The position numbers and the translations under genes were made by a program. A stretch of 32,108 nt of DNA. Origin: Bacteroidales bacterium. Its GTDB lineage: Bacteria; Bacteroidota; Bacteroidia; Bacteroidales; DTU049. The stretch spans positions 1 through 32,108 of the forward strand of contig JAFGWG010000222.1 of NCBI GenBank assembly GCA_016937255.1. The letters run 5' to 3'. A model generated the notes under the pieces. The model had not been told where the DNA came from, searched no databases, and saw only the letters and a list, made by a program, of their open reading frames with translations. Positions 1 to 9,908 of the stretch are shown one piece after another; the first letter of the stretch is position 1; each line of letters opens with the position of its first letter.

Positions 1-126
1 CATAAAAGTATCCATAAAGAGCAAAAGACTAATGGCAGCCTGGGATAACGACTATTTATTGTCTATTTTAATGCGTTGACCCTGATAAATACCACCCCAC
101 ATTTCCTAAGTCCCAAATCATTTCCT

Positions 127-134
127 TAACTTTG
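127..134 (+). promoter_or_regulatory. Putative -7 promoter box (TAnnTTTG)
   Basis: The octamer taactttg matches the Bacteroidota sigma-A -7 consensus TAnnTTTG and lies 14 bases before the ATG of the OmpA-like gene. I see no clear -33 TTG box at the usual spacing, so this rests on one element and on position. Confidence 0.4.
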
Positions 135-148
135 TAAAAAATATCAAG

Positions 149-1330
149 ATGAAAAAGCTTTTTATCGTATTAATCTCTTTAGTATTAGTCACTGGGGTTA
201 TGCAGGCTCAAATTTTGGAAAGAGCAAAGGATCATGCCAAAAACAAGGTCAATAATAAGATTGACAACGAAATTGATAATGGCATTGACAAAGGCATTAA
301 TAAAGTGGAAGACGGCATTGAAGGGAATGGTAAGAGAAACAGTGATGATGCCAATGCAGAGGTTTCTGACGTGACTGATATTGGCGAGTGGAGAAATTAT
401 AGCTTCATTCCTTGCTCAGATATTATGTTTTACGATCTACCTGGAGCATGGGAAGAAATAGGGGAGAAACCTTCGCAATGGAAGATAATCAAAGGCAAAG
501 TAGAAGTAAAAGATTTTAACGGTATTAATGTGATTTCTCTCTATGATGAAATGCCGGAGATTGTTCCTGATGTTTCTAGTCCTGAGAAAGACTATTTGCC
601 GGAATCTTTTAGTTTGGAATTCGACTATTATCGTCCGTCTGGTGGACATAACCTTTCAGTTTATTTATTTGATCGTAAACATCAAACTGTCAACGGGCAA
701 GCTGAAATAAAAATTGGATATAATTATGTTTCTGTGGGCTCTGAAAAAGGAAATTACAATGGAACTTCATCTTATAGTAGCGATGCCTGGGCACATGTAG
801 CCATTCATTTCGACGACGGCGAGTTGCGTATTTATATGAATGAAGAACGTGTAATTGATATAAGCGATTATGGTTCAGATCCTACTGGAATTACCCTACA
901 AGCTTATTACGCTACAGATAAAGAAACATATTACCTGAAGAATATTTGTTTGGCTGTAAAAGAAGATGATTTCAGTGATCAACTTGCTCAAAATGATGAG
1001 ATTATTGCCTACGGAATTTCATTTACCAATGGAACAGCCGAGCTTCGTAAAGAAAGCATGGGTAGTATCAATAAGATTTACTCATTGATGATGAAAGACG
1101 AAGATTTGAGCTTCACCATCGAAGGCCATACCGATAATTTTGGTGATGATAAAGACAATAAAAAACTGAGCGAACAAAGAGCCGAAACAGTAATGAATGT
1201 TCTTGTGCAAATGGGTATAGATAGCAAGCGCCTGAAAGCTAAAGGCTATGGCGAAAGCAAGCCTGTTGCTGGAAATTCGACTGAAGAAGACAAAGCTAAG
1301 AATCGTAGGATTGTTTTTGTGAAGAAATAG
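149..1330 (+). CDS. Exported OmpA-family protein with LamG-like middle domain
   Basis: A 393-residue envelope protein that probably links the outer membrane or periplasm to peptidoglycan. Residues 1-20 form a signal peptide ending in MQAQ. Residues about 32-60 are a run of four-residue units of the form x-I-D-N (KVNN, KIDN, EIDN, GIDK, GINK), likely an amphipathic helix. Residues about 90-275 are beta-rich with a concanavalin/LamG-like look (SFSLEFDYY, WAHVAIHFDDGELRIYMN). Residues about 285-393 are an OmpA C-terminal domain with EGHTDNFGD, LSEQRAETV, GYGESKP and the final NRRIVF, the usual peptidoglycan-binding signature. It stands alone, with a probable promoter just upstream and a repeat cluster downstream. 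The specific role is unknown. The OmpA domain is certain, the LamG-like call is by appearance. Confidence 0.9.
   Translation: MKKLFIVLISLVLVTGVMQAQILERAKDHAKNKVNNKIDNEIDNGIDKGINKVEDGIEGNGKRNSDDANAEVSDVTDIGEWRNYSFIPCSDIMFYDLPGAWEEIGEKPSQWKIIKGKVEVKDFNGINVISLYDEMPEIVPDVSSPEKDYLPESFSLEFDYYRPSGGHNLSVYLFDRKHQTVNGQAEIKIGYNYVSVGSEKGNYNGTSSYSSDAWAHVAIHFDDGELRIYMNEERVIDISDYGSDPTGITLQAYYATDKETYYLKNICLAVKEDDFSDQLAQNDEIIAYGISFTNGTAELRKESMGSINKIYSLMMKDEDLSFTIEGHTDNFGDDKDNKKLSEQRAETVMNVLVQMGIDSKRLKAKGYGESKPVAGNSTEEDKAKNRRIVFVKK
245..325 (+). repeat. 12-base in-frame tandem repeat coding x-I-D-N tetrads
   Basis: About six degenerate 12-base units code KVNN-KIDN-EIDN-GIDK-GINK, then VED-GIEG, just after the signal peptide of the OmpA-like protein. 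The hydrophobic residue recurs every fourth position, which fits a helical or coiled linker. Confidence 0.6.
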
Positions 1331-1340
1331 CTTTTTTGCA

Positions 1341-1412
1341 TTGTTGACGGGACTTTAATTTTTTGAGACAAAGCATGCCTTGTCTCAAGATAAGATAACC
1401 CAGTTGCAAAAA
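1341..1412. repeat. REP-like palindromic element, copy upstream of the transposase gene
   Basis: An imperfect 22-base palindrome at 1365-1386 (core gagacaa-agcatgcc-ttgtctc) is flanked on the right by caagataagataaccc and a G/A-rich tail, as in the other copies of this window. It lies between the OmpA-like gene and the RAYT gene, 46 bases before the RAYT start. It may also act as a terminator hairpin for the OmpA-like gene. Confidence 0.75.
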
Positions 1413-1432
1413 AAACTAAAACTCACAAAAAC

Positions 1433-2041
1433 ATGGCAAAATACAAGAACAAATACCGTATTGAATCTGCCAGACACCCACACTGGAACTATGAGTGGAA
1501 TGGTGTGTATTTTGTAACTATTCTTGCCGGGAAACGAAAGCATTTGTTTGGAGAAGTCGTTGAAACGGGTGCAATTGATATTCCATTTGAAACAAAACTG
1601 TCTGAAACAGGCGAAATTGCAAAACACTGCTGGCAAGAAATTCCGGAACATTTCGAAAATGTAGAACTTGGCGAATTTGTCATTATGCCAAATCATATTC
1701 ATGGCTTAATTATAATCACAAAAGATGATCTGGCGGGAGTACAGAACGACATCGTAAAGACAAGGCACGCCTTGTCTCAGGATACAACTAACCAAACTCC
1801 CGCCCAACGGCGTTTCCAAAATCAGGGTAGAGAGTCTTTGTCATCGATAGTTGGCTCTTTCAAATCAGCAGTATCTAAAATTGCACATAGGAAATTTCCA
1901 GATTTCAAATGGCACCCACGATTTCATGATGTGATCATTCATGATGAAGATTCATTTCATAATCATTCTCAATATATCATTGATAACCCGCTAAATTGGT
2001 TCAAGGATGATTATTTTGGAGATGAAAAGACGATGAAATAA
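1433..2041 (+). CDS. REP-associated tyrosine transposase (RAYT, Y1_Tnp family)
   Basis: A 202-residue single-domain HUH endonuclease of the IS200/IS605-like Y1 family. RAYTs are thought to cut and move REP palindromes and are not themselves flanked by classic IS ends. The HUH motif is in MPNHIHGLI at residues about 85-93 and the catalytic tyrosine is likely the Y of HSQYIIDNPLNW near the C-terminus, a typical RAYT ending. LSSIVGSFKSAVSK (about 137-150) is the usual central helix. Palindromes of one sequence family lie on both sides of the gene, and one more is read through in frame at 1758-1777, coding the KTRHALSQ segment. It starts at an ATG 46 bases after the upstream palindrome. Family and context agree well. 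Activity is not shown. Confidence 0.93.
   Translation: MAKYKNKYRIESARHPHWNYEWNGVYFVTILAGKRKHLFGEVVETGAIDIPFETKLSETGEIAKHCWQEIPEHFENVELGEFVIMPNHIHGLIIITKDDLAGVQNDIVKTRHALSQDTTNQTPAQRRFQNQGRESLSSIVGSFKSAVSKIAHRKFPDFKWHPRFHDVIIHDEDSFHNHSQYIIDNPLNWFKDDYFGDEKTMK
1753..1784 (+). repeat. REP-like palindrome inside the RAYT coding sequence
   Basis: The 20 bases at 1758-1777 (agacaaggca/cgccttgtct) match the palindrome at about 6436-6455, including the preceding gtaa and the following ctca. It is read in frame as K-T-R-H-A-L-S and lies in the variable loop between the HUH motif and the LSSIVGSF helix. Confidence 0.8.
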
Positions 2042-2059
2042 TTTTGATATTTATGGATC

Positions 2060-2224
2060 CGTTGTCAAGACTTATCTATTTTGAGACAACGCGTGCGTTG
2101 TCTTTACTGGGACTAGTAGTAAAGACTTAGTTAAGTTCTATTGCGGCTAAAAAGAAACCCCGTAAAGACAAGGCATGCCTTGTCTTGTCTCAAGAAAAGA
2201 TAACCGAGCCGCAAAAAGAACTAG
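2060..2224. repeat. BIME-like pair of inverted REP palindromes
   Basis: Two palindromes, at 2084-2103 (agacaacgcg/tgcgttgtct) and about 2165-2190 (agacaaggca/tgccttgtct plus an extra tgtct), face each other across about 60 bases. The outer flanks ttgtcaagacttatctatttt and caagaaaagataaccgagccgc are approximate reverse complements. It sits between the 3' ends of the RAYT gene and the convergent glycosidase-like gene. The second palindrome carries a 5-base tgtct duplication. Confidence 0.8.
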
Positions 2225-3516
2225 TTTTCCAAAATCTCCAAATGCTCATCCGTCAAGGCATTCATGTCAAATAAAGCTACGCCAGATGCACCACCAGCTT
2301 TGGCTTTTTCTATCGCTTCTTTCAGTTCTTTAGGGTTGAGAGCAGGAATATAGAGACCAGTGTACAGCGGAAATCGTCCATCGAGCTCTGTTACACCTTG
2401 CTGCGTAACAAATTCTATCCAATTCAGATTCTGATCATAGAAATTATGGTAAATCATGGGTAAAACCATGTCCAGCCTCCATCTTGCCCAGTCCTGACGA
2501 ACGGTTTTACGTGCCATTTCAGGATAAGGGAAAACTGCTGCAGAGATTTTACAACCATTGCCATGTGCGATATCTGAAAGTTCATTTACCAGCGAAGTAA
2601 CAGCATCCAGGCGGAATTGCAGCCATTCCATGCTCAGTTCAGGATGCTCCATTTCTGTTGGATCAATACCGAAAATTTCTTCGAACTGCTTTCGTGCTTC
2701 GGGATGATATCCAAAATCGTATTCAGGCAGTTCAGTATTTTGCACAATGCCATATTTCTTTTGCAAGGGTGCTCCCAGAATGACATCGCAAAAACGAACA
2801 TAGTCGAGATGTATTGAGGCCAAACCTTCAATTCTTGTGTATGGTTCAATCACATCTTTAATATGTTGGCGGGCTCCTTCACTAAACGGACTCAGCCATT
2901 GATAATATGATACATAGGCATTGTATTCGAGGCTGTTTTGTCCGTTGCGGTTCACGGCATACCAATCGGGGTGTTGCTGTGCCAGAGTATCTGCCGGACG
3001 ATTCAGAGTCCATACCCATGCATGAATTTTTATGTTATCGCCACTGATATCAACTAAATGCTCAAGTTGGGCAGGGGAGCCTGCCAAAAAGAAATCGGTA
3101 ATGCCGGCATCGGTGTATTTATGCAAGGCTGTAAGCCATTCTTCATCGGTTTTGTATTTGCCGGCATTTCCCCAAACTGCAATTACAAAATTATTGCGTT
3201 CGGTTTTATTCAGAATTCCACTCTCATTGATAGTGTATCTTAGGCTGGTATCGGGGATATCAATATAAATATCGAAACCGAATTCATCGAATTTCATGAC
3301 CGGATACAATTCCTGATCCTTGATATTCAATATTTTACAATTCAATTCTTTCAAATTTTCCGCGTATCCGCCTTCATATCGCTGCTTGTGTTTCTGCTGA
3401 CGATATAATTCATATAAATACTGGATAATAATTTCATGCGGATTGTCCTTATACACAACAGAGCCGGGTTTTTCATCACTGAAAACCACATATCCCCAAT
3501 GCTCTGGCCGGTGCAT
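2221..3516 (-). CDS. Glycosidase-like TIM-barrel part (GHL10/DUF187-like) of a split CBM9 fusion protein
   Basis: The first ATG of the frame after an in-frame amber codon gives 431 residues. The frame is open without a stop right back to 3645, so this is the C-terminal part of the protein begun at 4275. The first 130 or so residues finish the CBM9-like domain (MHRPEHWGYVVFSD is a family hallmark). From VIAVWGN on, the sequence looks like the GHL10 family of glycoside-hydrolase-like TIM barrels: HAWVWTLNRP, IHLDYVRFCD, AAVFPYPEMARKTVRQDW, WRLDMVLPMIYHNFYD, YTGLYIPAL, ASGVALFDMNAL. The aspartates of the LDYVRF and LDMVLPM segments are candidates for catalysis. A ribosome binding site before 3516 is not evident, so independent translation is doubtful. 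The substrate is unknown. Confidence 0.75.
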   Translation of the reverse strand: MHRPEHWGYVVFSDEKPGSVVYKDNPHEIIIQYLYELYRQQKHKQRYEGGYAENLKELNCKILNIKDQELYPVMKFDEFGFDIYIDIPDTSLRYTINESGILNKTERNNFVIAVWGNAGKYKTDEEWLTALHKYTDAGITDFFLAGSPAQLEHLVDISGDNIKIHAWVWTLNRPADTLAQQHPDWYAVNRNGQNSLEYNAYVSYYQWLSPFSEGARQHIKDVIEPYTRIEGLASIHLDYVRFCDVILGAPLQKKYGIVQNTELPEYDFGYHPEARKQFEEIFGIDPTEMEHPELSMEWLQFRLDAVTSLVNELSDIAHGNGCKISAAVFPYPEMARKTVRQDWARWRLDMVLPMIYHNFYDQNLNWIEFVTQQGVTELDGRFPLYTGLYIPALNPKELKEAIEKAKAGGASGVALFDMNALTDEHLEILEN

Positions 3517-3645
3517 GTCTATGGCAGATTGTTGTGACCAAACCCAGTTGTATTCTCGCAGGTATTTCCCTTCAGCATCTTTTTTGCGTTGATACTTCCC
3601 GTCAACGATTTCGTGTTGCCATTGTACACGGGAAAAGTTAATGCG

Positions 3646-3648
3646 CTA
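3646..3648 (-). other. In-frame amber codon splitting a CBM9-glycosidase fusion gene
   Basis: The minus-strand codons run K-V-P-K-P-TAG-R-I-N-F-S-R-V-Q-W. Both sides are in the same frame and the downstream frame stays open to 2221. In CBM9-like proteins as I remember them the RINFSRV motif follows a tryptophan, so a single TGG to TAG change would explain it. TAG ends other genes here (1328-1330 and 17392-17394), so the codon is not reassigned. Confidence 0.85.
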
Positions 3649-4275
3649 GGGTTTGGGAACTTTATCAATGAATTTCTGTCCCGGGTAGAGCTCTAATAAG
3701 ACTTTCCAAGGCATGGCAATTTCTACGGACCAATATTTGTCTGCATCTGAATAATCATTGATGGTGCCTTCGTTATGCACTCCAACCTGCAGTCCATCAA
3801 TATTCCAGTTGAAATTGATGGGGCCGCCTTCGCGATAGGTGTTTAAAAGTAATAAATCCCATGGTGTACCCAGTGCATTGACTTCAAACTCTGCATAGTG
3901 TGCCCATTGGAGGCCGGGCTTCAAAAAGATTTCAAAGTCGTTATTCAGATAGATAATGGCATCGCGTTCGGTTATGTCTCCCCAAATATGCTCTTCTTCA
4001 AGCCGGGCGTAGAAATAGAAGTTCTCATCATCCCAAAGCATTTTTACTTTGGTTTCGAAAAATGGAGCAGGTTTTTTATCGCCTTCAATATCAATAAATG
4101 GATCGGTAAAATCGACTTCAGACCAAATTTTTTCATCAGCTTTTCCGTCGATGATGATAGCTTCATTGGTTTTATAGACGATATAGCCTTTGGGGATAAT
4201 TGGTTGATAAATATCTGATTGTGCAAAGGAAAGAACCGCTGCAAATATGAATAGAAATGAAAGTGTGAACTTCAT
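3646..4275 (-). CDS. Exported CBM9-like carbohydrate-binding protein, cut short by an in-frame stop
   Basis: The N-terminal 209 residues of a split gene. I chose the ATG at 4275 rather than one 26 codons upstream because it begins a clean signal peptide (MKFTLSFLFIFAAVLSFAQS). The mature part is a family 9-like carbohydrate-binding beta-sandwich: IDGKADEKIWSEVDFTDPF, VKMLWDDENFYFYARLEE, NDFEIFLKP, YAEFEVNALGTPWDLLL, YWSVEIAMPWKVL. It stops at TAG just before the RINFSRVQW segment that normally belongs to the domain, so the short product lacks the end of the sandwich. Without the stop the whole reading frame (4275 to 2221) would be 684 codons, joining CBM9-like and GHL10-like parts. Either a recent pseudogene, a sequence error or readthrough. 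Confidence 0.8.
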   Translation of the reverse strand: MKFTLSFLFIFAAVLSFAQSDIYQPIIPKGYIVYKTNEAIIIDGKADEKIWSEVDFTDPFIDIEGDKKPAPFFETKVKMLWDDENFYFYARLEEEHIWGDITERDAIIYLNNDFEIFLKPGLQWAHYAEFEVNALGTPWDLLLLNTYREGGPINFNWNIDGLQVGVHNEGTINDYSDADKYWSVEIAMPWKVLLELYPGQKFIDKVPKP

Positions 4276-4311
4276 GGATTGGCTTTGTGGCGTAAAAATA
4301 CGAAAAACAAA

Positions 4312-4422
4312 AACGATGTCACATTGAGCTTGTCGAAATGCGGCATCGTTCAACTATATCAGAATCAATTGCCAACTTCCCTTAGTCTGCGCTCTGGGCA
4401 AACTGCTCAGCCTGACAATTGA
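4312..4422. repeat. Two small inverted repeats between genes
   Basis: Seven-base arms at 4312-4318/4344-4350 (aacgatg/catcgtt) and 4365-4371/4416-4422 (tcaattg/caattga) frame sequences such as cattgagcttgtcgaaatg and ctcagcctgaca. These resemble dispersed intergenic repeats I recall from other Bacteroidota. Only one copy of each is present here, so the call is weak. Confidence 0.3.
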
Positions 4423-4424
4423 TT

Positions 4425-4991
4425 TTACGTTTTATTCCTCTCATCCAGAACCGGAACACCCATAAATTCGGAGAGAACTTCGAGAATGTATTTCATTTCG
4501 GATTTTAGGATTCGGGATTCTTCATGATGTAGTCTTAAAATGCTATATTTTCGATCATTCTTAACTTTTATTAAAACAAAGCCTTCTGTAAGTTCTACCT
4601 CAGACATCATCTCTTTAGATATGCTCTCAATTACATTTGAAGTAAGTCCTTCAATATTGGCAATCTCTATGCTTAATTGTTTCTTTGCATCTAGTTCTAT
4701 TTTCTCCTTTGAAATAATAAGCTTTTTGAATTTAGTAGATCTGTTTAATAGTATGTATATCAATCCAAAAACAGCAGAAACAGCATAATAAGCCAAAAGT
4801 TTTGAAAATGAATTAGGATTTACAATAATAAGAGTTGTTATTATCGCAAATGTTAGTATTAGAATTACAAGAATTCCTATTACATATGTGCTTGCTTTTC
4901 TTGTGATTACAATCTTATCATTTTCAGCACTAAGGTTATAACCATGTCTCTTCATTTTCCTCCTAAATATCTCCGCTTTACTATATGCCAT
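4425..4991 (-). CDS. Small membrane protein of unknown function, two transmembrane helices
   Basis: 188 residues that I do not recognise. A basic N-terminus (SKAEIFRRKMKRHGYNL) with a short stretch DKIVITRKAS comes first, then two hydrophobic helices at about residues 34-56 (TYVIGILVILILTFAIITTLI) and 64-82 (LLAYYAVSAVFGLIYILL). A cytosolic tail of about 100 residues with alternating beta and helix (KLIISKEKIELDAKKQLSIEIANIEGL, GFVLIKVKNDRKYSILRL) might be a PH-like fold, as in other two-helix proteins of this layout. A good TAnnTTTG box lies 23 bases upstream. It stands alone between repeat elements. Confidence 0.75.
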   Translation of the reverse strand: MAYSKAEIFRRKMKRHGYNLSAENDKIVITRKASTYVIGILVILILTFAIITTLIIVNPNSFSKLLAYYAVSAVFGLIYILLNRSTKFKKLIISKEKIELDAKKQLSIEIANIEGLTSNVIESISKEMMSEVELTEGFVLIKVKNDRKYSILRLHHEESRILKSEMKYILEVLSEFMGVPVLDERNKT

Positions 4992-5013
4992 AGGATTGTA
5001 TTTATTATTGATT

Positions 5014-5021
5014 CAAAAATA
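5014..5021 (-). promoter_or_regulatory. Putative -7 promoter box (TAnnTTTG)
   Basis: On the minus strand the octamer is tatttttg, an exact match to TAnnTTTG, 23 bases before the ATG of the two-helix membrane protein gene. No clear -33 box is seen. Confidence 0.45.
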
Positions 5022-5084
5022 CGATTAAAACTGAATGGGCGATGAATTATTGACGCGGTTTTTTTCAACTGTAGTTTTTTGGGC

Positions 5085-5312
5085 TTGGTTGTTAGGTCTT
5101 TACTGTTTTGAGACAACGCGTGCCGTAGGGAGCATTTGTCAGGTCATTGCTTTTTTGAGACAAGGCATGCCGTAGGGAGCATTTGTCAGGTCATTGCTTT
5201 TTTGAGACAACGCGTGCGTTGTCTTTACGGGGTGAGTTGTTGGGATTTTACTGTTTTGAGATGATACACGCCTTGTCTCAGTATAGAGATCCCAGCCGCA
5301 TAAGAACTACTT
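5085..5312. repeat. Cluster of REP-like palindromes with a 47-base tandem unit
   Basis: This fills most of the gap between two minus-strand genes. It starts with gttaggtctttactgttttgagacaacgcgtg, then gccgtagggagcatttgtca is reached twice with an exact 47-base period (5122 and 5169), each time followed by aggtcattgcttttttgagacaa. Then comes a full palindrome at 5204-5223 (agacaacgcg/tgcgttgtct) and, inverted, a decayed copy with acacgccttgtctca and the tail cccagccgcataagaactac. The half-palindromes joined to gccgtaggg look like recombinant or truncated copies. Confidence 0.75.
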
Positions 5313-5352
5313 TTCCGGAACCTTTACACCCCTTTGATGAGATTGAGGAGGA

Positions 5353-6129
5353 TCAGTTTTTACGTTTTAAGAAAACAATTTTCCCCAAAAATGCGGACAT
5401 ATCTCTGTTCAGGTTATAACCCTCAAAAAGATAGGTATTATTGTCTGTTTTTAGCTTGCGAATTTGAATTTTCTCATCCACCATGGTTTCTTTTAAGAAA
5501 TTGATAGAAAAGGACTTCGGGTAGTTATTTGCATGAAATTCAGCCGAAAAGGTATCCATCATCCAATCTACATATCGACTTGAGGTAACATGTTTGTTCA
5601 AATCAATGTCGAAATAGGTCGTTTTAAGTTCAGAAATCTCGCCTTCATTTACAGGAAAAAGCTTTTCGGGAGGGTTGGGGAGTGCATGCTGATCTTTTAG
5701 CTGTGTAAATACTTCCAGCATATCATTTTTTAGAACTTTTGGGCGTTTAGAATGTTTATCAATGACCAGCCAGCTAGAACTTGATCTGGCTTTTGGGTTA
5801 TTTTCTTCGTTATATAAGATGAAGTCTCTCAAGTACATAATTCTGTGCTGGTCTTTTGGCCAGGTGGTAATCTGTCCATGCTCCTTCCACTTCATGGGCT
5901 CTTCAATTTCTACAGTAAGCTGTCGGAGTACCCAAAAAAGATCCTGCCCTTCCAAATCATCGAAACCGAAATGCAAAGAGTCTGCTGAAAGAAAAGCTGA
6001 ATGAACAAATAAATCTACTATTGATCCTAACCGTAAATTCATATTCATATCTGCCCTTGCTGTATCAACCGTAAAGGGCATCCTGTATTCCAGCGATTCT
6101 GGTTTTATATCGTTTGTACTGTTGGCCAT
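5353..6129 (-). CDS. Acyl-ACP thioesterase (FatA/FatB-like)
   Basis: 258 residues, the normal size for bacterial acyl-ACP thioesterases. It releases fatty acids from acyl carrier protein in the cytosol, so it may set the supply of free fatty acid for lipids. The protein has two hot-dog domains. The first (about residues 12-150) has DLFVHSAFLSADSLHFG and FWVLRQLTVEIEEPMKW. The second begins near 165, with TTYFDIDLNKHVTSSRYVDWMMD as the family signature containing the N-x-H catalytic pair. No signal peptide. It is read alone, with REP clusters on both sides. A TAnnTTCG-like box lies upstream at 6161-6168. Chain-length preference cannot be read from sequence. Confidence 0.9.
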   Translation of the reverse strand: MANSTNDIKPESLEYRMPFTVDTARADMNMNLRLGSIVDLFVHSAFLSADSLHFGFDDLEGQDLFWVLRQLTVEIEEPMKWKEHGQITTWPKDQHRIMYLRDFILYNEENNPKARSSSSWLVIDKHSKRPKVLKNDMLEVFTQLKDQHALPNPPEKLFPVNEGEISELKTTYFDIDLNKHVTSSRYVDWMMDTFSAEFHANNYPKSFSINFLKETMVDEKIQIRKLKTDNNTYLFEGYNLNRDMSAFLGKIVFLKRKN

Positions 6130-6160
6130 ATATCTGTTTTCTTTCTATATATTTTGATGG

Positions 6161-6168
6161 CGAATGTA
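6161..6168 (-). promoter_or_regulatory. Possible -7 promoter box (TAnnTTCG variant)
   Basis: The minus-strand octamer is tacattcg, one base off TAnnTTTG, 32 bases upstream of the thioesterase ATG. A gttcg stretch about 16 bases further upstream might be the -33 region. Weak. Confidence 0.3.
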
Positions 6169-6279
6169 AGAAATTCTAGATAAACGAACTTGAAATATAA
6201 TCGAACTCTTTGGTTTATGCTTAGCTATCTGAACTAGCAAAACATTTCAGGATTGTTTTTTTGGAAAAGTAGTTTTATT

Positions 6280-6490
6280 GGCTTAGTTGCCAAGACTTTA
6301 CTGCTTTGAGACAACGCGTGCCGTAGGGAGCATTTGTCAGGACATTACTTCTTTGAGACAACGCATGCGTTGTCTTTACGGGGACTGGTAGTAAAGAGTT
6401 AACTTAGTTCTTTTGCGGTCTAAAAATAACCCGTAAAGACAAGGCACGCCTTGTCTCAAGAAAAGATATCCCAGCCGCAAAAGAACTACT
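6280..6490. repeat. BIME-like cluster of REP palindromes
   Basis: In order: ttgccaagactttactgctttgagacaacgcgtg joined to gccgtagggagcatttgtca (third copy of that unit), then a full palindrome at about 6356-6375 (agacaacgca/tgcgttgtct), the linker ctttacggggactggtagtaaagagttaacttagttcttttgcgg, and an inverted palindrome at about 6436-6455 (agacaaggca/cgccttgtct) with the tail caagaaaagatatcccagccgc. This is the best preserved complete pair in the window. The rest of the 6130-6561 gap holds no gene that I can see. Confidence 0.8.
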
Positions 6491-6561
6491 TTCTCGTATC
6501 CTCCAAACCCTTCCCTTCGAAACGCTCAGGGAAAAATCAGTTTTTTGGAAAACAGTGAAAT

Positions 6562-6999
6562 TTACTCCCCAATATCCTCATTCCAGAGTTTGGGATTGTT
6601 TGCAATGAAGTTCTGCATCATATCAATACATTCTTTATTATCCAGAACTTTTACATCAACGCCGTTATCAGTTAAAAGCTTTCCAGAACCCATAAATGTC
6701 TGATTTTCACCAATTACGACTCTTGGAATTCCATACAACAAAACGACTCCCGAGCACATTGAACAAGGTGATAGTGTAGTATATAGAACACATTCTTTGT
6801 ACACAAAAGCAGGCTGCCTACCGGCATTTTCCAGCGCATCCATTTCTCCGTGCAGAATTACGCTACCATTCTGAATTCGTTTATTATGGCCTCTGCCAAT
6901 GATTTTGCCTTTATGAACCAATACAGAACCGATAGGAATGCCACCTTCTGCTAAACCTATTTTTGCTTCTTTTATGGCTTCTTCAAAAAATATATCCAT
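6562..6999 (-). CDS. Cytosine deaminase, yeast Fcy1-like
   Basis: 145 residues of the zinc-dependent cytidine/deoxycytidylate deaminase fold. Zinc ligands and catalytic glutamate are H50, E52 (LHGEMDALENAG) and C79, C82 (SPCSMCSG). The sequence is strikingly close to yeast cytosine deaminase from memory: GHNKR, YTTLSPC, YGIPRVVIGEN, and the shared C-terminal EDIGE. Residues matching the yeast base-binding set are all in place: N39, F102, W139 and D142 for yeast N51, F114, W152 and D155. It therefore probably turns cytosine into uracil for pyrimidine salvage, unlike the amidohydrolase CodA used by enterobacteria. It lies 17 bases after the secreted hydrolase gene and may be cotranscribed with it. 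A guanine or tRNA-adenosine deaminase is less likely. Confidence 0.85.
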   Translation of the reverse strand: MDIFFEEAIKEAKIGLAEGGIPIGSVLVHKGKIIGRGHNKRIQNGSVILHGEMDALENAGRQPAFVYKECVLYTTLSPCSMCSGVVLLYGIPRVVIGENQTFMGSGKLLTDNGVDVKVLDNKECIDMMQNFIANNPKLWNEDIGE

Positions 7000-7016
7000 A
7001 AAAAAATGTTTAAAAG

Positions 7017-8468
7017 CTATTCAATTACAAGTTTTTTAAGAACTTTAGTATTATCAAGGGTAATTTCAAGAATGTAGATTCCTTTAGGAATTGCATTGAG
7101 ATTTATATCTCTTGATGTGGCATTTGTTTTCTCAGCATAAACAATACGACCGGAAATATCGATGATTTCTATCGCTTGCATTTGTTGATTACCCTGAATT
7201 ACATCAATATGGATAAAATTGGATGCAGGATTGGGGAATACCGATATTATTTTCTCATTGGATAATTCATCAAAACCAGCCTGAGAGATAAGTCCATTGG
7301 ACATGGCCATTCTAGGAGTCAGGTACCAAATAATGGTATCAATATAAGCCAGGGCTTTGGTTTTAGACATATCAGGGTTTGTTATGATAGAGTTGCTATT
7401 ATTGATGCAAGTTGTATCCCACCATTGCCATGGAGCAAATTCAACACCTGATCGTGGCATGGGAAATAAACCATCCCTGCCATTGTTTCTTGAGTTCGCA
7501 ATTTGCGTTATCGGATCATTGAACCCGGCATTAATATACACATCGTTGTTCCCAAGGGTATTAGAAATTCTTTGAATATCGTAAGAACCGCTTACGTTGA
7601 TTAGAAAATCACCGGTAACCTGCACAATCACAGCTCCGAATGAATATGGACGAAAAGGATCATAAGGGCAATGAATGGATGCCATAGGAGGTTCACCTGC
7701 TTCAATCCACGTACTGTCGCCGGCTACGCCACCAAGATTGCCGATGAAACTAAGATCTGATGAATAGGTTGGATAATTGGCTATATTCAACGGACGAGCC
7801 TGAGTGCCATAACTATTTCCTGACAGAGAAGTATCAATATACGACTGAGTGGTTGAAGGGTTGATGAATTTTGCAAGCGATATTTCATCATAACTGTCTA
7901 AACAACCTGCTGCAACTGCACAAAATGCCCCGCTTCCTTCTCCAATCACGGAGAATTTATCATTTGCAATTGAATACGGATTTCCATTGTCGTAACTCCA
8001 TTTGAAGAAGCGAACAGCGTTTCTGATATCCTGCACAACACGATAGAAAGCGTTTAGATAGGTTCCTGTTCTAGTGTTTTGATCACCCGACACCGGATTC
8101 CAGCCCATTCTGTAATCAATAGCAGCCACCACATAGCCATATTTTGCCAACTCTGTGCACAACACTACAATTTGAGAATCGGTTTTGGTTCCTGTACAGT
8201 ATCCATTTATCGGAACAGGCAGAAATGACCCCCCATGCACAACAATGACAACAGGTCTTTCAGCAGCAGTGTCTCCTGCAGGTTCATACAAATCAAGTTT
8301 CAAATTCAGGTTGGTCGGCATGCCTGTTATAACATCAATATTGGCTCCGTAAGTGATGTCGGCTGTAGTATCAACAGTACTGAAAACCTCGTCGATATAG
8401 CGCGTTTGAGCCTGAAGGTTTGTTAGGAAAAAGGCAAGTAAAGAGAAAAAAGCAATTATTATTTTCAT
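7017..8468 (-). CDS. Secreted alpha/beta-hydrolase (esterase-like) with T9SS type A sorting domain
   Basis: 483 residues. Signal peptide 1-20 (ending LQAQ). The core is an alpha/beta hydrolase of carboxylesterase type: LKLDLYEPAGD, the oxyanion motif VIVVHGGSF, YGYVVAAIDYRMGW, DIRNAVRFFK. The nucleophile elbow reads IGEGSGAF (residues about 175-182). Lined up with the usual G-E-S-A-G, the serine position is glycine and S179 is one residue later, so the active serine is shifted or absent. Residues about 405-483 are a type A T9SS tail (VFPNPASNFIHIDV, IIDISGRIVY, IPKGIYILEI, KKLVIE). The product should thus be exported by the SEC then T9SS route and stay on the surface or be released. Its substrate is unknown. 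Confidence 0.87.
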   Translation of the reverse strand: MKIIIAFFSLLAFFLTNLQAQTRYIDEVFSTVDTTADITYGANIDVITGMPTNLNLKLDLYEPAGDTAAERPVVIVVHGGSFLPVPINGYCTGTKTDSQIVVLCTELAKYGYVVAAIDYRMGWNPVSGDQNTRTGTYLNAFYRVVQDIRNAVRFFKWSYDNGNPYSIANDKFSVIGEGSGAFCAVAAGCLDSYDEISLAKFINPSTTQSYIDTSLSGNSYGTQARPLNIANYPTYSSDLSFIGNLGGVAGDSTWIEAGEPPMASIHCPYDPFRPYSFGAVIVQVTGDFLINVSGSYDIQRISNTLGNNDVYINAGFNDPITQIANSRNNGRDGLFPMPRSGVEFAPWQWWDTTCINNSNSIITNPDMSKTKALAYIDTIIWYLTPRMAMSNGLISQAGFDELSNEKIISVFPNPASNFIHIDVIQGNQQMQAIEIIDISGRIVYAEKTNATSRDINLNAIPKGIYILEITLDNTKVLKKLVIE

Positions 8469-8649
8469 ATTAGTAAGATTTGGAATTGATAGGATAAAAA
8501 TACAATAATAATTGAAAACAGAACTAAATCATGTATTGACTAGCTTGGCAAAACATCTATTTATATGTTTCTTGCAGAAGAATTACTCATTTTAAGGCTT
8601 GTTGTATAAATTTCACCACGATAATCAGCGTCTTTTAATCAATTTTCAC

Positions 8650-8657
8650 TATTTTCG
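8650..8657 (+). promoter_or_regulatory. Possible -7 promoter box for the phosphofructokinase gene
   Basis: The octamer tattttcg is one base off TAnnTTTG and lies 19 bases before the ATG, inside a divergent 207-base gap shared with the hydrolase gene. No convincing -33 box was found. Confidence 0.35.
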
Positions 8658-8675
8658 CATAAGAAAATAACTACT

Positions 8676-9908
8676 ATGAGAGAGCATAAACTTTATCAAG
8701 GAAAAACACTGGCAATTCTTACCGGAGGCGGCGATACACCCGCGTTGAATTCAAGTATTGAAAGTATTCGTAATCGTGCGCAACTATTAGGATATAATGT
8801 ATATGGCGTTCGCCACGGTTGGCGAGGTCTTCTGGGCGATGGAGATGTGGTAGATCTTACCAACCAGCCTTATGATGGTTATTATGGCGGAACTGCACTG
8901 CGCTCCAGCCGTACAAACCCATTCCCTTCAAAAAAGAATCCTGAAAATCGTGTGCCTCAGATTTTGAAGAATTTTGAGCGCTATAAAATAGATGTTTTGG
9001 TAAGCATTGGTGGCGATGATACCAATGGTGCTGCAAAACGGTTATACGAAACGGAAGGAATTCCTGTAATTGGATTCCCAAAAACCATTGATAATGACCT
9101 GCGTACACGTACCATTCACCATTACGGAAATTTAGAAATTGAAGCGGTAATGTGTCCTGGTTATCCATCTGCACTTAAAGGTGTAATGGAAATGACTCAG
9201 CGCATTAAAACCACTGCAGAATCTCATTCACGCGTTATGGTACTTGAAGTTATGGGCCGCGATGCCGGTTGGCTCGTTGGTGGTTCTGCGTATGGACAAG
9301 CTGATTTAATTTTAATACCTGAGTATGAGATGGATAAAAGCCGTAAGTCATTTTTCTTGGAGCAAGTGAAGGAAAAATACCTGCGCAGTAAAAATAAATC
9401 GTTGATTATTGCAGTTTCTGAAGGTGTAAAATGGTATATGGATGACACAGAAAAGACCGATGTAGTATATGCCAGTACAGAATTAGATGAATATGGTCAT
9501 CCTCGATTAGGAGGAATTAGTGGCGTTATTGCATCCGAAATTTCAAATAAACTTGGCATTGAAGCTCGTGCACAATCTATTGGATATTTTGCACGCTCCG
9601 GCGAGTGTCGTTTATATGATCGTAAACTCACTTCTACATTGGCCGATAAGGTTGTTGACCTCCTTCTTCGTGAAGATTACGGTAAAATGCCTGTTTTGAA
9701 AAATATGGTTCGTTATCCCGAATTGGAAGAATTCAATACTGATTCCATTGATATGGGTAATATTGGCAACCAGCCATTACCAGAGGTATATTATGATATA
9801 GATGAATTCCGTTTCAATGATGCCTATTACGATTTTATGCATCATATTTTGGGTGATCGCAGTTTTAGAGATTTCAATGTAGATTTTCCAACTGTTTTGG
9901 CTCAGTAA
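8676..9908 (+). CDS. Phosphofructokinase, probably pyrophosphate-dependent
   Basis: 410 residues of the PfkA superfamily, phosphorylating fructose 6-phosphate to the 1,6-bisphosphate in glycolysis. TGGGDTPALN near the start is the phosphate-binding loop. GGDDTN at 112-117 has Asp where ATP enzymes have Gly (GGDGS), and PKTIDND at 135-141 has Lys where they have Gly (PGTIDND). Both changes are the recorded marks of pyrophosphate-dependent enzymes, in which they block ATP and bind pyrophosphate. D139 in TIDND is the catalytic base, and MGRDAGWLVGG (193-203) binds the sugar phosphate. The 410-residue length is over the 320 of short ATP enzymes. The enzyme would be reversible. It is followed after 19 bases by the peptidase gene. 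No allosteric site call is possible. Confidence 0.92.
   Translation: MREHKLYQGKTLAILTGGGDTPALNSSIESIRNRAQLLGYNVYGVRHGWRGLLGDGDVVDLTNQPYDGYYGGTALRSSRTNPFPSKKNPENRVPQILKNFERYKIDVLVSIGGDDTNGAAKRLYETEGIPVIGFPKTIDNDLRTRTIHHYGNLEIEAVMCPGYPSALKGVMEMTQRIKTTAESHSRVMVLEVMGRDAGWLVGGSAYGQADLILIPEYEMDKSRKSFFLEQVKEKYLRSKNKSLIIAVSEGVKWYMDDTEKTDVVYASTELDEYGHPRLGGISGVIASEISNKLGIEARAQSIGYFARSGECRLYDRKLTSTLADKVVDLLLREDYGKMPVLKNMVRYPELEEFNTDSIDMGNIGNQPLPEVYYDIDEFRFNDAYYDFMHHILGDRSFRDFNVDFPTVLAQ

Follow-up and report, generated by a model that had tools for sequence, protein, structure and literature searches.

An in-frame REP-like palindrome, CGTAAAGACAAGGCACGCCTTGTCTCA, lies at 1753–1779 (+ strand) inside a RAYT-like transposase gene (1433–2041, +, 202 aa). 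It can form a hairpin and is identical over 27 bases to an intergenic sequence at 6432–6458 of the window, the whole stretch of 32,108 bases that was analysed. Across 186 RAYT genes, the corresponding loop contains an inverted repeat with a stem score of at least 9 in 144 cases, which suggests that an in-gene REP is the usual state in this branch of the RAYTs. Comparison with REPs in the flanking DNA further suggests that inner and adjacent REPs are often alike.

The gene and its in-frame palindrome

The gene was assigned as a RAYT/TnpA_REP-like Y1 HUH transposase from its open reading frame, profile matches and fold. The protein matches NCBIfam profile NF047646 (REP_Tyr_transpos) with an E-value of 7.5e-14 and 51.8 bits, under the curated cut-off of 80, and Pfam Y1_Tnp with an E-value of 7.9e-4 and 20 bits, under the cut-off of 23. 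Since it scores under the curated NF047646 cut-off, we file it as RAYT-like on the basis of motif, fold and REPs. NF047646 is matched at E 0.001 or better by all 31 proteins of alignment A2. The best solved fold for the protein model is 4er8 (E 1.2e-6), a complex of TnpA_REP with a REP hairpin, followed by the ISDra2 and IS608 transposases, and no PDB entry other than 4er8 matches the sequence at E 0.001.

The HUH motif, P-N-H-I-H-G, occupies residues 86–91 (1688–1705, +), and both of its histidines, H88 and H90, are invariant in alignments of 13 and 31 sequences. Y181 of the segment Y-I-I-D-N-P (1973–1975, +) lies in a column that is invariant in the same two alignments and is presumably the catalytic tyrosine, a role that we assign from knowledge of the RAYT family. 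The protein thus combines HUH histidines with one tyrosine, the arrangement of a Y1 fold, with all three residues invariant, and the REPs on either side of its gene have further copies in the genome. The strand after the HUH motif is joined to the next helix by a variable loop of approximately residues 97–122 (1721–1798, +), which has low pLDDT in the AlphaFold2 model. The mean pLDDT of the model is 82, with values of 48 for residues 101–110, 51 for residues 111–120 and 61 for residues 121–130, which include the short helix; the blocks on either side are at 87 or above. The loop with the in-gene REP is therefore disordered in the model.

The palindrome codes for V-K-T-R-H-A-L-S, preceded by an isoleucine and followed by a glutamine, and the reading across it in the gene frame is Q-N-D-I-V-K-T-R-H-A-L-S-Q-D. 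An earlier note on this DNA had described 1758–1777 (AGACAAGGCACGCCTTGTCT) as a near-exact repeat of an intergenic palindrome at 6436–6455. The in-gene position holds and the partner is one base off, at 6437–6456; with 27 identical bases, the repeat is even longer than was claimed. Translation bears out the in-frame reading and the peptide K-T-R-H-A-L-S-Q that had been proposed, and both the alignment and the AlphaFold2 model agree with the placement of the segment in a loop after the HUH motif and before the next helices. The RNA of 1745–1792 folds better than all 200 of its 200 shuffles (z −3.6). Within positions 1–9000 of the window, no known RNA family was matched at Rfam gathering scores. 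Scans of 1300–2300 yielded no excess over shuffles, with two promoter hits, compared to 2.6 expected, and one terminator hit, compared to 0.8 expected.

REPs surround the gene on both sides. The copy immediately upstream (1364–1385, −) forms an inverted pair with the in-gene copy at 91% (pair I12). Downstream of the gene, a REPIN-like inverted pair consists of a left arm at 2081–2107 (−; pairs I2, I3 and I10) and a right arm at 2157–2187 (+; pairs I5, I10 and I14). Further REP clusters are located at 5.1–5.3 and 6.3–6.5 kb. The former includes a REP at 5198–5231 (−; pairs I1 and I7) and, at 5110–5180 (−), two truncated copies joined to CCGTAGGGAGC (families D1 and D2). The latter contains a second REPIN-like pair (I4), whose left arm (6353–6382, −) and right arm (6430–6459, +) are 47 nt apart; the right arm includes the 27-base twin of the in-gene copy, which lies between ORFs 5353–6129 and 6562–6999.

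In the 3.85 Mb genome (254 contigs), the 24-mer core of the palindrome has two exact matches, both inside the window. Allowing up to three mismatches gave 19 match rows, corresponding to 15 distinct places, compared to none for the reversed 24-mer used as a control. The double-foot form GTAGAGACAAGGCATGCCTTGTCTCTAC is present at four of these 15 places (L011, L012, L015 and L016). The foot of the in-gene and 6432–6458 copies is GTAA, rather than the canonical GT[AG]G.

Two other features of the window are noted. At 5059–5217 and 6257–6368, three truncated REPs are joined to CCGTAGGGAGCATTTGTCAGG (families D1 and D2), forming a composite repeat that is unlike a simple inverted pair. On the minus strand, ORFs 3646–4353 and 2221–3516 are separated by a single in-frame TAG (3646–3648) in a frame that is otherwise open; we read them as one gene, with a DUF4015 match in its downstream part, and the TAG as either a break in the gene or a sequence error.

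Loop palindromes across RAYT genes

The search for RAYT genes covered 395 genomes from across the phylum and 59 more closely related ones; matches were obtained in 118 of the former (E 1e-15) and in 22 of the latter (E 1e-10). For the first survey, 183 regions were drawn up from all but a few of the matches listed, and 140 of them, of at most 20 kb each, yielded 162 RAYT ORFs together with the window. Removal of 33 ORFs that lacked the HUH motif or the helix motif, or were duplicates, left 129; a further 11 were set aside, and the remaining 118 genes were divided into an N part, the loop and a C part. A second, independent set was built from 80 named loci (the best 80 of 442), in which 16 of 84 were dropped, three of them already present in the first survey, leaving 68 usable genes. 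The two sets together make up the combined survey.

A loop stem score of at least 9 was found in 92 of the 118 genes of the first survey (mean loop length 135 bp), compared to six for the N part and none for a 180-bp C part. Shuffling of the loop codons gave 0.55 such genes and synonymous recoding gave 2.5, so that codon usage or peptide selection is rejected as the source of the palindrome. At a more stringent score of at least 12, stems are present in 57 of the 118 RAYT loops, compared to 11 of 1242 other ORFs of at least 150 residues in the same regions. The second set behaves similarly, with a stem of at least 9 in 52 of 68 loops, in six N parts and in no C part, and with 0.5 expected from shuffling. 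In 131 of the 144 stem-bearing genes of the two sets, the stem is free of mismatches. These genes include those of Flavobacterium defluvii, Algoriphagus iocasae and Massilibacteroides vaginae, as well as genes of a Kuenenia draft genome and of Adonisia turfae, a cyanobacterium.

Relatives that lack the segment, whose existence had been raised in the earlier note, were indeed found. A stem of at least 9 is missing from 42 of the 186 loops, as in Mucilaginibacter corticis (L274) and Brumimicrobium glaciale (L268), and degenerate REP-like peptides persist in a few of the 42. The length of the loop is also variable among RAYTs. On the tree, presence of the stem requires 34 changes, compared to 38.0 when shuffled (11 of 300 shuffles as low), so that clustering is weak.

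When a foot is required in addition to the stem, a REP is present in 135 of 186 loops, compared to 40 of 182 windows of 150 bp before the gene and 42 of 183 after it, the upstream window running from an estimated gene start and the windows on both sides being able to overlap neighbouring genes. The frequency in the loop is thus about three times that of the adjoining windows, and at 1 kb from the gene it falls to 0–1%.

Several further arrangements were observed in the surveyed regions. A second RAYT loop, 36–58 residues before the HUH motif, holds in-frame REPs in nine genes (L087, L139, L142, L152, L241, L256, L270, L279 and L285); in L279, the main loop has no stem of at least 9. The loops of L159, L162, L089, L110 and L085 contain tandem repeats of partly REP-coded peptides, such as the repeated VETGHA of L159, and extend to as many as 145 residues, with rough boundaries. 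Other long ORFs near RAYT genes also carry REP-like palindromes, in L172 (− strand, ORF at 4016) and L112 (+, 861).

Origin and possible role of the in-gene REP

Both an in-gene REP and a REP within 400 bp are present in 56 of the 186 genes, and at least one six-base core is common to the two in 39 of these, compared to 3.1 on average and never more than 8 when the flanks are shuffled; a few of the 400-bp flanks contain a neighbouring RAYT gene (L166 and L189). The remaining 17 pairs have no common core. Thus, the co-occurrence of the segment with a matching palindrome, which had been put forward as a check, is seen for the larger part of these genes and fails for the others. In a wider flank, masked for RAYT ORFs although some degenerate RAYT fragments may stay unmasked, a copy with at most one mismatch was identified for 23 of the 144 in-gene palindromes, compared to five of 1144 comparisons with other loci, and no copy was identified for 111 of the 144 at up to three mismatches. 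At L166 and L189, RAYT genes stand side by side in tandem and differ in their in-gene REP cores.

Canonical copies with two feet were counted in 38 genomes that had been chosen for their in-gene copy; G465, where the counting pattern missed the 13-base centre of the in-gene copy, was left out. The number of two-footed copies per genome ranges from 1 to 105; many of the surveyed genomes are drafts, and low counts may be underestimates because draft assemblies lose repeats. The in-gene copy is the only two-footed one in five of 37 genomes, with exact feet in G025 and G445 and with at most one mismatch in G455, G470 and G472. For G470 and G472, the copy was placed in the gene because the pattern fits the REPs inside the genes at L288 and L294. 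When two mismatches are allowed, G445 has two copies, both within RAYT genes, G131 has two copies, one in the gene and one adjoining it, and G025 has four further, weaker sites whose cores differ. At L083 (G445) and L294 (G472), a REP that is less perfect but identical in its core is found no more than 400 bp from the gene. An in-gene segment in a genome without the palindrome, an outcome that had been named as counting against the link between the two, is therefore partly seen, in the form of these five genomes.

The 135 footed copies contain 61 distinct six-base cores and are read in more than one frame: V-E-T in 102, R-D in 30 and a third frame in three. Pairs of genes that carry both stem and foot were compared by identity; the pairs are not independent of one another. 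Above 90% identity, the core is common to all 13 of 13 pairs. At 70–90% identity (37 pairs) the frame is shared by a fraction of 0.95 and the core by 0.46, and at 60–70% identity (320 pairs) by 0.84 and 0.18, respectively. Below 60% identity, frame agreement is 0.57–0.62, compared to 0.62 expected by chance from the frame frequencies, so that the stability of the frame is limited to short times. The tree requires 20 changes of frame, compared to 27.4 when shuffled (none of 300 shuffles reached so low a number), and 81 changes of the core, compared to 113.

A chance resemblance is ruled out by the 27 identical bases, the lack of matches to the reversed control and the survey of loops, and its probability is practically nil. 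The palindrome might also be a by-product of codons for a functional protein motif, V-E-T-x-H-A-x-S-L, and V-E-T is indeed the commonest frame. However, a different frame is used by 30 of the 135 footed copies, whose peptides are R-D-like, and the third frame by three; synonymous recoding retains a stem in very few of the genes that have one; 42 of the 186 loops have no stem; and model confidence is low in the segment. We consider such a motif very improbable, and as the main cause of the palindrome it is refuted by the other frames and the recoding control. Conservation of the peptide, or its being part of the normal fold, would have spoken against an inserted REP; neither is seen, since there are two main frames and many cores, and since the segment has a pLDDT of about 50. 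Given that neither the peptide nor its frame is constant, that the segment is missing from some relatives and that model confidence is low there, we conclude that the peptide is not in the fold. The match to the intergenic copy and the survey support the earlier proposal of a nuclease gene that carries a palindrome of its own target type in a tolerant loop; autoregulation through binding to that gene's DNA or mRNA, also suggested in the earlier note, is a conjecture.

How the REP came to be there, and why it stays, can be explained in several ways. REPs often land near a RAYT gene, and those that happen to enter a disordered loop may be harmless and remain without a role, an explanation close to that of Quentin et al. 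(2018, PMC6006769). The low confidence and variable length of the loop are consistent with such passive insertion, as are the REPs in the second loop of nine genes, the footed REPs in 22–23% of the 150-bp windows on either side of the gene, and the use of two frames with agreement no better than chance below 60% identity. On the other hand, 131 of 144 stems are free of mismatches, REPs are about three times as frequent in the loop as in adjacent windows, which can overlap coding DNA, and the in-gene copy is the sole two-footed one in five of 37 genomes, with degenerate copies possibly nearby. Because of this enrichment and these genomes, passive insertion appears incomplete as an account, and we regard it as a serious contender that is nevertheless somewhat more apt to be wrong than right. 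The inner REP could also persist chiefly through transfer of the gene from one genome to another, with its copy on board, so that genomes with a single copy would be recent arrivals. The common core of all 13 closest pairs fits this idea, as does the patchwork distribution of subclass 2.4 over phyla (PMC6006769). Travel of the gene alone, however, leaves unexplained the agreement of inner and flanking cores in 39 of 56 genes, and we consider it unlikely as the main reason.

We give about an even chance to the reading that the in-gene REP is a standing, useful part of a REP-transposase unit, rewritten together with the flanking REPs. Under this reading of a useful unit part, the segment would be a REP of this transposase's own family, held in frame in the disordered loop, and the unit would have the arrangement REP, gene with REP, REP. 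The inner and flanking REPs would be rewritten together through REP copying or gene conversion. With less confidence, we propose that the hairpin is kept in the gene since it is useful to the unit, perhaps by providing the enzyme with a binding site within the single-stranded DNA or mRNA of the unit itself, perhaps by ensuring that a REP accompanies the gene whenever it enters a new genome.

A more specific form, in which selection maintains the in-gene REP as a cis-acting target through which the enzyme binds the gene or mRNA that encodes it, and this target is re-copied with the flanking REPs, is possible but doubtful. If it were true, gene and target would be inseparable, and the REP would belong to the interior of the transposase gene rather than being a stray repeat. 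Self-recognition is directly testable, since the hairpin can be abolished by synonymous recoding that leaves the protein unchanged. An in-gene REP whose core is usually that of nearby REPs also constitutes a natural record of the REP on which each enzyme acts. The spread of REPs has been described as poorly understood (PMC8266576).

Comparison with known systems

The closest structural match, E. coli TnpA_REP (4er8), lacks a loop of this kind; where the HUH part leads into the helix part, the profile alignment runs from residue 71 of its chain to residue 82. In-gene REPs are not mentioned in the available text of a 2021 paper on recognition by TnpA_REP (PMC8266576). Within the literature on REPs, RAYTs and in-frame palindromes, as far as the text of those papers was available, PMC6006769 is the only one found to state that REPs occur inside RAYT genes, and we found no report in that text of core matching, flank comparison or single-copy genomes.

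Palindromic repeats that are read inside genes are known from other settings. Intragenic GTAG and CGTC REPs were described by Di Nocera et al. (2013, PMC3733652), with stress on genes for replication and repair and on other genes. The likeness to our case is that short palindromic repeats are read inside genes; the difference is that the available text places REPs on the flanks of RAYT genes, not in their interior. Rickettsia palindromic elements are in-frame insertions in coding genes (PMC10969869, PMC3733652) and resemble the present case in that palindromic DNA is translated within proteins. They belong to another family and host, however, and the available text does not place them in a gene whose product acts on the repeat itself.

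The general phenomenon of a REP inside a RAYT gene is already in print: REPs within tnpA_REP genes were described for subclass 2.4 by Quentin et al. (2018, PMC6006769), who considered that an inserted REP may have little impact on the protein. In the available text of that paper, we found no shuffle control, comparison of in-gene and flanking cores, or genome-wide copy counts. The gene described here shares the trait of subclass 2.4, an in-frame REP between HuH and Y (1753–1779). Its motifs agree in part with those given for the subclass, NH[IFV]H, WQ and YIxNNP (PMC6006769): NHIH is present, but the other two are represented by W-H and Y-I-I-D-N-P. The consensus of our 31-protein alignment is NHIH, WQ and YIxNNP. 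The foot also differs, with GTAA in the in-gene copy compared to GT[AG]G for subclass 2.4 (PMC6006769).
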